Shown: positions 4,521-13,291 of the stretch, in pieces
Numbering within the stretch: position 1 is the stretch's first letter
Layout: every line of letters begins with the position of its first letter
Source: Polyrhizophydium stewartii
Lineage: Eukaryota > Chytridiomycota > Chytridiomycetes > Rhizophydiales
Length of the DNA: 17,457 bases
Reading direction: 5' to 3'
Assembly: GCA_027604665.1 (NCBI GenBank)
Contig: JADGIZ010000140.1
Span: 5,800-23,256, forward strand
Position numbers and translations under genes: made by a program
The notes under the pieces: model-generated
Databases searched by the model: none
Told to the model about the DNA's origin: nothing
What the model saw: the letters and a program-made list of their open reading frames with translations, nothing else

Positions 4521-4596
4521 GACGTGACGTAGGAGCCTTTACAAGGCTCCGGTCACTCCGCGACCGGGCTTCGCCCTACGTCGCTCCAGCCGCTTC
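4521..4596 (-). repeat. Composite GC element, inverted relative of 13118-13206
   Basis: On the minus strand this reads as hairpin gggc-gaa-gccc, then cggtcgcggagtgaccgg, then hairpin ggagcctt-gta-aaggctcc, then tacgtcacgtcc. The same order occurs on the plus strand at 13118-13206, which carries an extra 28-bp repeat unit. The plus-strand right end is ccagccgcttc (4587-4596), matching the GCCGCT(C/T)C end of many elements. A shorter copy in the same orientation is at 7075-7114. Confidence 0.9.
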
Positions 4597-6874: not shown

Positions 6875-7074
6875 CTTTTCTAGTTAATGGTCCAAACTAG
6901 GAATAGCTAAAGCGATGAGTTTCTAAAATAAATAAAAACTAAAGGTATGGTTACCCTTAATTGCTTACCTATATATTAACTTTGGATATAGCAAAAGGAT
7001 GTAGAACATTAATCATCACTATATGCCTGCTAACCAATCTTATGAGAATCTGAACCATTAATATAAAAATATCA

Positions 7075-7114
7075 CTCCGCGACCGGGCTTCGCCCTACGT
7101 CGCTCCAGCCGCTC
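7075..7114 (-). repeat. Short copy of the composite GC element
   Basis: About 39 bp (cactccgcgaccgggcttcg through ccagccgct) match 4555-4594 exactly and end in gccgctc. The adjoining ggagcc hairpin and tacgtcacgtcc modules of the longer copy are missing, so the boundary falls at cactccg. Neither this copy nor 4521-4596 carries the extra repeat unit seen at 13141-13168. Confidence 0.9.
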
Positions 7115-11862: not shown

Positions 11863-13104
11863 TAAAGACAGCTAGCCCATGTAAAACTGGCTCATGCACT
11901 TATTAGCGTAACACTCACATGCTTCTAACAACTAGTGACATAATCGGGGCCGATTCCACCCTTACTCTACTTCCAAAGACTAAAAATAATTGCGAAGCCG
12001 CTTCAACTTCTGATCTCAATTAATTAGTGGAAGGGAGGGATTTGAGATACCCCGAAAATTAAGAATTGAAGTATGGTTGCCCCCAAAAGGAGATGAAGTA
12101 GTTATTGATATCTTGAATTCTAAGGTAGCTACGGATTCTCCTTGGGGGTCTAAAATGGGTTAGGAGGTAATCTATTATTGCTATTTTATCAAGATCATTT
12201 CACCCTCCATTGATCGGTTCCTCAATTGATAAGGTGGATTATTTACCATAGTCTATATAGTTATAATAGCTCATTATGGAAATTAATAATAAAAAGCTGG
12301 ATAATAAAAAATGACCACCTTAGATAACTTATACAAATAACAGCCGCTCTAAAAATGGCCATCTATTAAATACAATCACTATGACCTAGTATCAACCCTT
12401 TCTTAAAAGGAGATAACTGATGACCTATAGATATTCTTTAAAAATAAACTACGGATTGTAGCATTCGCAAATAAATTAATTATATTTACTTATGTAGATT
12501 CGGGTAAACGAATCCCCGCCTAGCGGTGATTCTTTAAATAACAGCTCATTTATGTTTTATTTGAAGTTGACTAATGATTGTGTAAGTCTTATTGAATTAA
12601 AGCTAGATATAGAATTGATCAAATCGCAAAGTTGTCACTACAATGAGGATACTTAAAATAATAAACGGTAGTTACTTAAAATAGTTAATAGCCGATCTTA
12701 AGATGATCCTTTAAAATGGCTTTCTCCTATTCTTCACCAGGGCTCTACATCATAAAGAGATAGTTGAAACGGCTGGACCTGTTCTCAATTATTTCCTTAA
12801 AATCAGATATGAAACTCTCCGGTCATTATTCTTAACTTATTCAAGTATGCGTTTAATATGAATAGAGAGGAAACATAAAAATGAAAAAACTGTACAACGC
12901 AGGAACTCAACCCAAACCTCGAACCACCAACTAAAAATGGTCAAACTCGATTTAATCGAATGAATAGCTGATGTTAAATTTGTCATAGGTGTTTAATTAT
13001 ATAAGATTCCATAATAATCTGCATGCTATTCTTTAATTGTATTAGCTATTGATCCTAATTTCGTAAGGAAACCCTAAGGGTGGTCAATCACTTTTGAGGA
13101 AAAT
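11863..13104. other. AT-rich spacer with few elements
   Basis: No gene is recognised. Structures present: aatcgg-gg-ccgatt (11942-11955), attgcgaagccgc module (11989-12001), the long hairpin at 12080-12148, gaatcNccgcctagcggNgattc (12510-12532) and tcgat-tta-atcga (12947-12959). Confidence 0.5.
12080..12148. repeat. Long-range hairpin, 12-bp stem with 2-base bulge
   Basis: ccccca-a-aaggaga (12080-12093, two extra A) pairs with tctccttggggg (12137-12148) across a 43-base loop. Longer loop than the other hairpins in the window, so it could instead be part of a small structured RNA. There is no supporting copy. Confidence 0.55.
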
Positions 13105-13291
13105 CGCTAGGTCGCTAGTAGGGCGAAGCCCGGTCGCGGACGCTAGTAGACCGGAGGTCGGTCGCGGAGTGACCGGAGCCTTGTAAAGGCTCCTACGTCA
13201 CGTCCGTGACCGGGGCGCCTCAGGCGCCCCCCCGGTGCTTCAAGCACCGGGCCTCAGAAGAGCTTCTGAGGCTAGTCACGTCCGCCGCTCC
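13105..13291 (+). repeat. Largest composite GC element, at least six hairpins
   Basis: Two 28-bp units (13113-13140 and 13141-13168) share cgctagtag and cggtcgcgga but have different palindromic centres, ggc-gaa-gcc and acc-gga-ggt. Then follow ggagcctt-gta-aaggctcc (13175-13193), ggggcgcct-c-aggcgcccc (13212-13230), cccggtgct-tca-agcaccggg (13231-13251) and gcctcagaag-ag-cttctgaggc (13251-13272). The element ends at gccgctcc (13284-13291). Part of it is inverted at 4521-4596. Confidence 0.9.

Follow-up and report, generated by a model that had tools for sequence, protein, structure and literature searches.

Two adjacent 28-bp units in the DNA of Polyrhizophydium stewartii raise the question of how a repeat can keep its flanks and change its centre while that centre goes on pairing with itself. 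Units 13113-13140 and 13141-13168 read CGCTAGTAG-GGCGAAGCC-CGGTCGCGGA and CGCTAGTAG-ACCGGAGGT-CGGTCGCGGA, so that the 9-bp left and 10-bp right flanks are identical and the centres differ. Each centre is a perfect 3+3+3 hairpin, as a sequence-only reading of this DNA had described. Random mutation after duplication, that reading argued, would break the pairing, and either replacement of the hairpin as a whole or selection on structure was needed. The units lie in a stretch of 17,457 nucleotides, here called the window, which corresponds to bases 5800-23256 of contig C140; genome-wide searches covered 690 contigs (12.86 Mb). Labels of C plus a number denote contigs of the assembly, and labels of L plus three digits (for example L023) denote sampled loci.

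We consider that the units most probably belong to mobile elements made of inverted arms, whose slots hold hairpins that are exchanged as wholes, with one element probably nested in another at 13113-13291 (Table 1). We give this reading a probability of roughly 0.64.

Table 1. Features of the 13104-13291 cluster, its relatives in the window and sites of a second hairpin family; positions are those of the window unless a locus is named.
Feature	Position	Strand	Remarks
Left end context TCGCTAGGT	13104..13112	+	common to single elements elsewhere (L023, L025)
Unit L1, outer left arm: hairpin GGCGAAGCC between both joints	13113..13140	+	
Unit L2, inner left arm: hairpin ACCGGAGGT, identical joints	13141..13168	+	
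Unit R1, inner right arm: GTGACCG-GAGCCTTGTAAAGGCTC-CTACGTCACGTCC	13169..13205	+	core matches the ACGTAG..CGGTCAC cassette type in reverse complement
TCCGTGACCG, outer-stem partner of CGGTCGCGGA at 13131-13140	13203..13212	+	overlaps the final three bases of R1
Unit R2, outer right arm: GTGACCG and hairpin GGGCGCCTCAGGCGCCC	13206..13229	+	loop is TGA in the C29 and C242 copies
Further hairpin CCCGGTGCTTCAAGCACCGGG	13231..13251	+	C242 copy has a different hairpin, GGGACTTCTAGTCCC; absent from the C29 copy
Frequent hairpin module GCCTCAGAAGAGCTTCTGAGGC	13251..13272	+	missing from the C29 copy
Right end CTAGTCACGTCCGCCGCTCC of the composite cluster	13272..13291	+	shared with C550; ends of C285 and C242 differ
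Single un-nested element, one left and one right arm	4521..4596	-	same family
Truncated copy, left arm only	7072..7113	-	identical to 4553-4594 over 42 bp
GCGGTCCG..GGACCGC family sites	1297-1340; L010:897; L010:2884; L018:1707; L018:4081; L021:5612; L027:680		

A hairpin slot between fixed joints

Collecting every CGCTAGTAG-N9-CGGTCGCGGA site in the genome, the check that the sequence-only reading had proposed, gave 10 exact sites, and the N9 is self-complementary in all 10 (6 GGCGAAGCC, 3 ACCGGAGGT and 1 CCCGTAGGG). The same search with up to three mismatches returned 17 matches against 22 for the reversed control, and only exact sites were counted. As a background rate, a 3-bp terminal stem closes 759 of the 20168 9-mers (3.8%) found in GC islands within the sampled DNA; these islands number 384 and total 16582 of 205475 sampled bases.

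The pattern extends beyond centres of 9 nt. Genome-wide, CGCTAGTAG-X-CGGTCGC (gap 3-33) occurs at 19 sites, against 1 match for the reversed control, and X is a perfect hairpin in 19/19. X comes in 9 kinds with lengths of 9, 15 or 17 nt, two of the kinds being one hairpin in both orientations. Viral contigs, serving as a chance control, gave 87 matches to the same pattern, and none of the 80 examined had a 3-bp terminal stem. A sister scaffold, ACGTAG-X-CGGTCRC, matched 142 times; the 100 matches listed hold 22 different centres, and 90 are perfect hairpins under a strict rule (stem of at least 3, loop of at most 8). Of the ten failing rows, five carry one mismatch each (four GGGCC..GGCTC and one GGTGAAGCC), four fall outside the rule as long or short forms, and the last, on C81, is no hairpin and likely a chance match; the single-mismatch hairpins among these listed rows indicate that point mutation also acts. 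The two scaffolds draw on common hairpin kinds, with 8 of the 9 kinds of CGCTAGTAG-X-CGGTCGC recurring among the listed rows of ACGTAG-X-CGGTCRC.

For the looser pattern GTAG-X-CGGTCGCGGA, 38 of 48 rows are hairpins by the strict rule. Of the remaining ten, GTAG forms the CCCGTAGGG loop in three, and C628:452 overlaps a row already counted. Two more are long forms (C2, C18), C29:4372 has a single mismatch and C61:30897 is shifted; the last two, on C272 and C468, are not hairpins, and no other cassette was seen on either contig. Reversed controls say little for such loose patterns (30 matches against 48 for GTAG-X-CGGTCGCGGA, 135 against 142 for ACGTAG-X-CGGTCRC), and the test is instead the hairpin state of the centres. 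Searches for empty slots gave no clear case. CTAGTAG-N0-4-CGGTCNC matched once (reversed control, 6), on C18, where the gap reads TCTT and the right word differs; ACGTAG-N0-4-CGGTCRC matched four times (C5, C136, C183, C360; reversed control, 31), with no cassette seen there. An unbiased search for 8-mer flank pairs with unlike middles gave 776 groups, in which 92 of 1881 middles scored as hairpins; the groups listed were mostly shifted repeats, so this search is not used as evidence.

The right halves follow the same plan. GTGACCG-X-ACGTCACGTCC has 33 matches (reversed control, 0); X is GAGCCTTGTAAAGGCTC in 31 and a GGCGCC hairpin in 2. Read on the opposite strand, the 31 are of the ACGTAG..CGGTCAC type, so that the element amounts to an inverted pair of arms around GGA. 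Hairpins can also be flipped within a scaffold: GAGCCTTTACAAGGCTC, the GAGCC hairpin, occurs in both orientations in ACGTAG..CGGTCGC (9 and 4, listed rows) and in CGCTAGTAG..CGGTCGC (3 and 1), and in a single orientation in all 21 perfect examples among the listed matches of the CGGTCAC scaffold.

A second hairpin family, GCGGTCCG-N-GGACCGC, combines a constant outer stem with differing inner stems and has 18 rows genome-wide against 9 for its reversed control. Two rows are one C97 stretch read on both strands, which has no inner hairpin of at least 6 pairs; a perfect inner stem of at least 6 pairs is present in 13 of the other 16 and absent from three (C3 twice, C39). Some inner stems of this family differ by a single compensated pair, and gradual change therefore also happens.

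Proposed exchange of hairpins between copies

Copies of the cluster occur at many sites, as a cluster-wide query of 195 bp gave 56 whole and partial matches. Five composite copies (C140, C550, C285, C242 and C29) have mostly the same sequence in different flanks: of 20 flank comparisons, two beat the best of 20 shuffles (30 vs 23 and 27 vs 25) and 18 did not. Between C140 and C242, 18 of 169 aligned columns differ, and all of these lie inside four hairpins. Two of the hairpins are replaced (ACCGGAGGT vs GCCCCCCTTAAGGGGGC, and GGTGCTTCAAGCACC vs GGGACTTCTAGTCCC), and the remaining two differ by one loop base each (C/G and G/A). Other pairs of copies differ outside hairpins too, in the left joint, which is GACGTAG in C550 and C285 where C140 has CTAGTAG, and in the right ends; C29 lacks two of the hairpins. 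Joints that hold hairpins differing in length, stem and loop, together with a pair of copies that differ inside hairpins only, support the earlier view that whole-hairpin replacement or structural constraint is at work.

Could the hairpins instead have diverged in place, by compensated point changes with pairing kept by selection or by quasi-palindrome correction, in which one arm is copied onto the other in replication? Four 9-nt kinds can be aligned so that 12 of 12 cells are paired and two of three pairs are changed on both sides, and both the single-mismatch forms and the tips of the GCGGTCCG family that differ by one compensated pair are what such a process would leave. Yet the same joints hold 9-, 15- and 17-nt hairpins, single-mismatch forms make up just 5 of the 100 listed ACGTAG-X-CGGTCRC rows, identical hairpin kinds recur in two scaffolds, and C140 and C242 are free of any difference outside hairpins over their 169 columns. 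We regard divergence in place as unlikely to be the main process. Covariation of the stems in the four 9-nt kinds, like the strong folds predicted, would also suit cassettes that encode a structured RNA with tips free to vary as only RNA shape matters. That cassettes have such a role is very improbable, given that the window holds no Rfam family at gathering score, that one hairpin stands in both orientations within fixed scaffolds and that copies are dispersed, truncated, probably nested and set in different flanks.

Whole-hairpin exchange is the reading we prefer. Each arm has a slot between short fixed joints, holding a hairpin in nearly every listed case, and hairpins would be drawn from a shared set and exchanged whole, sometimes flipped. 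The slot rule, the hairpin kinds common to the scaffolds, the dispersal of copies among different flanks and the hairpin-only differences between C140 and C242 are shown by the sequences themselves. For the swapping we infer recombination between copies, or a polymerase that switches template from one copy to another, in either case at the short joints and most likely on a DNA strand that is single-stranded and folded at the time.

The loops of the short hairpins give a hint in this direction. Among the 9-nt centres of both scaffolds (listed rows), a cGNAg triloop lies on the same strand in 45/51 and in the opposite orientation in 0/51; the other six are five CCCAGAGGG and one with a mismatched closing pair. 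In the sample, 139 of 350 triloop hairpins with a stem of at least 5, or 63 of their 215 distinct kinds, have GNA/TNC loops, where shuffles give 11.4%; at stem 3 the count is 291 of 1497, against 11.1%. Copies and nested kinds are not independent in these counts. The strand rule is confined to short stems, as the GAGCC hairpin mostly shows GTA on the opposite strand. GNA mini-hairpins with at least two G-C pairs are described as exceptionally stable as DNA, with a Tm of 78 °C for GCGAAGC, in the part of PMC4686876 that treats them. The strand-fixed cGNAg triloops thus hint at folded single-stranded DNA, as a fit rather than a proof. More speculatively, hairpins might act as exchange units through folded single-stranded DNA, with strand exchange or template switching at the fixed joints; the unit would then be a DNA fold and not a gene, and cGNAg triloops would be its signature.

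Probable nesting and possible tandem duplication of double units

Single elements (L023, L025 and window 4521-4596) have one left arm and one right arm each. An element would comprise an arm GTAG-hairpin-CGGTCRC, a loop GGA and a reverse-complement arm GYGACCG-hairpin-CTAC. At 13113-13291, one element would lie in the loop of another, presumably by insertion into that loop, which would place the left arms side by side with different hairpins and the right arms next.

Several features of the cluster and its relatives bear on this arrangement. First, the units stand in the order L1, L2, R1, R2, with right-hand partners at 13169-13229. Second, at 7 of the 9 sampled double-unit loci, defined as sampled loci where CGGTCGCGGA directly precedes CGCTAGTAG, the outer CGGTCGCGGA is closed by TCCGTGACCG at the end of the inner element (at one locus with one mismatch), and the predicted folds of C140 and C285 contain this outer CGGTCGCGGA/TCCGTGACCG stem. 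The closure is missing at L013 and L038. Third, double left arms show a modest association with double right arms (Fisher P 0.023) over 22 loci classified by eye, those with no recognisable right arm being left out and related copies being counted uncorrected. Fourth, a bracket-order test for nesting was positive to a moderate degree only, with 9 of 17 even clusters balanced against 3.5 expected and 37 of 61 clusters consisting of a lone token. Outer closure in 7/9 loci is what a whole element in the loop of another should give, so that the second unit at 13113-13168 was most likely gained through nested insertion. We take nesting to be probable at 13113-13291 and not general.

In an alternative history, the 28-bp left unit was simply duplicated in tandem and one of the two hairpins later exchanged, with the right-hand duplication a separate event. 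It would account for the double left arms that have no outer closure at L013 and L038, for L045, where a double right arm accompanies a single left arm, and for C10:14578-14627, where two ACGTAG-GGCGAAGCC-CGGTCGC units 28 bp apart (14578, 14606) carry the same hairpin, unlike the nine sampled doubles. It is, however, at odds with the 10-bp closure found where the inner element ends in most of the sampled double-left loci and with the presence of two different hairpins in every one of the nine, and we hold it to be rather improbable as the origin of the double unit in the window. Plain tandem duplication is, on the strength of the outer closure, not the best picture at 13113-13168. The sequence-only reading had left the second unit as a gain here or a loss in two related copies: a gain through nested insertion is the likeliest, and the two loci with no closure together with the same-hairpin pair on C10 indicate that tandem gain or loss probably occurs as well. 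As for the related copies, the one at 4521-4596 is indeed a single element, on the minus strand, and the other, placed at 7075-7114, runs from about 7072 to 7113 and is a truncated left arm.

Repeats are hard to assemble, and a double unit could in principle be an assembly error. The L1-L2 hairpin pair is nonetheless found in three contigs (C140, C285 and C550) whose flanks differ, and six more sampled loci, on other contigs and in unrelated flanks, have double units with other hairpins, so that we consider an error of this kind extremely unlikely.

Many small elements among the sampled loci (for example L024, L022 and L010) end in CCGCTAGGAGTCGCTCCAA, CCGCGACGGAGTCGCTCCAA or CCGCGGCGGATGCCGCTCCAA, combining one right end with different inner parts; they are possibly the smallest members of the same system. 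We considered a tRNA-like geometry for the single element and rejected it, as ARAGORN found nothing and the predicted fold prefers another pairing.

Mitochondrial setting and known systems

The window has a GC content of 0.399 and contains only short open reading frames, none of them convincing under table 11, table 4 or TAG=Leu, and ARAGORN with the bacterial code found no tRNA in it. It looks like non-coding, chytrid-like mitochondrial DNA rich in mobile GC clusters, an assignment that follows from the genes on contigs with cassettes. The same cassettes stand on sister contigs that have cox1 exons (in-frame TAG in most of them), a group I intron (L022:2810-3078, on C285), and nad4, for which the best organism-labelled relative is 'Hompol1' (65% identity over 91%), which we take to be Homolaphlyctis polyrhiza, a chytrid. 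C116, itself carrying cassettes, has cox3 with six in-frame TAG. Reading of TAG as leucine is known from chytrid mitochondria. As in GC clusters, GC-rich palindromes here stand in AT-richer non-coding mtDNA, and units merge and shuffle.

Some further observations concern the genome at large. The 19 cluster-bearing contigs of known length total ~0.61 Mb (hand sum), and at least 11 more contigs carry clusters, so that the mitochondrial DNA could be close to 1 Mb in size if the assembly does not mix two genomes. There are two clearly different cox1 first exons, at L028 (C29) and L030 (C4), and a second, partial cox3 on C4, and the assembly may hold two mitochondrial genomes that share cassettes. 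The cassette family may help to explain the growth of so large a fungal mitochondrial genome. On C31, a contig bearing cassettes, positions 34091-34414 encode a fragment of a reverse transcriptase domain with two in-frame TAG, and on its account an RNA route for the spread of the clusters is kept as a possibility. In L034 (C98), an open frame under table 4 is LAGLIDADG-like, judged by eye from its motif, and has a long stretch repeated twice in tandem.

How do these cassettes compare with mobile hairpins already described? At L016 and L026 the minimal 28-bp form has a single hairpin, and full single elements have the arm hairpins and possibly a central one, as predicted by folding. Double-hairpin elements of Allomyces mtDNA (Paquin et al. 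2000) reportedly have two adjacent hairpins per 26-79 bp element; by that description, the elements here differ in being an inverted arm pair, each arm with its own hairpin, and in that they may nest. In the passages of PMC2800124 on hairpin elements, those of fungal (Allomyces) mtDNA are thought to be mobile, with no flanking duplication, and those of sponge mtDNA are dispersed like the ones here, tandem insertion giving apparent double hairpins. The sponge hairpins keep their stems and vary their loops (PMC2800124), whereas stems here differ completely within fixed joints. Volvox organelle palindromes resemble the present elements in often being inserted within one another (PMC2670323); the mitochondrial ones are, by contrast, AT-rich with TAAA/TTTA loops, and the PMC2670323 passages on them mention no fixed-joint slots.

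The closest likeness is to the GC clusters of yeast mtDNA (GC42 family), which are GC-rich, palindromic and dispersed, and for which merging and shuffling into new clusters are published; 403 of them share one 13-nt end with different neighbours (PMC4478555). Target-site duplication is reported for yeast GC clusters in the same source, whereas the element flanks here, read by eye, have no clear one. Here, moreover, a slot has fixed joints on both sides, and what fills it is a complete hairpin out of a set common to several scaffolds, a rule absent from the parts of PMC4478555 on merger and from its Discussion. A fixed-joint hairpin slot is likewise not described in the titles and abstract openings of the literature searched. 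The origin and evolution of mitochondrial GC clusters are still called poorly understood in PMC4478555, and fixed joints, a limited set of hairpins, and flipped and probably nested forms make that evolution testable. Each cassette could then be read as the trace of one exchange, and the cGNAg strand rule makes a prediction as to which DNA strand was single at the time. The kind of element is known, that of mitochondrial GC clusters, for which merging, shuffling and nesting are published; what is newer here is the fixed-joint hairpin slot and the strand-fixed cGNAg triloops.
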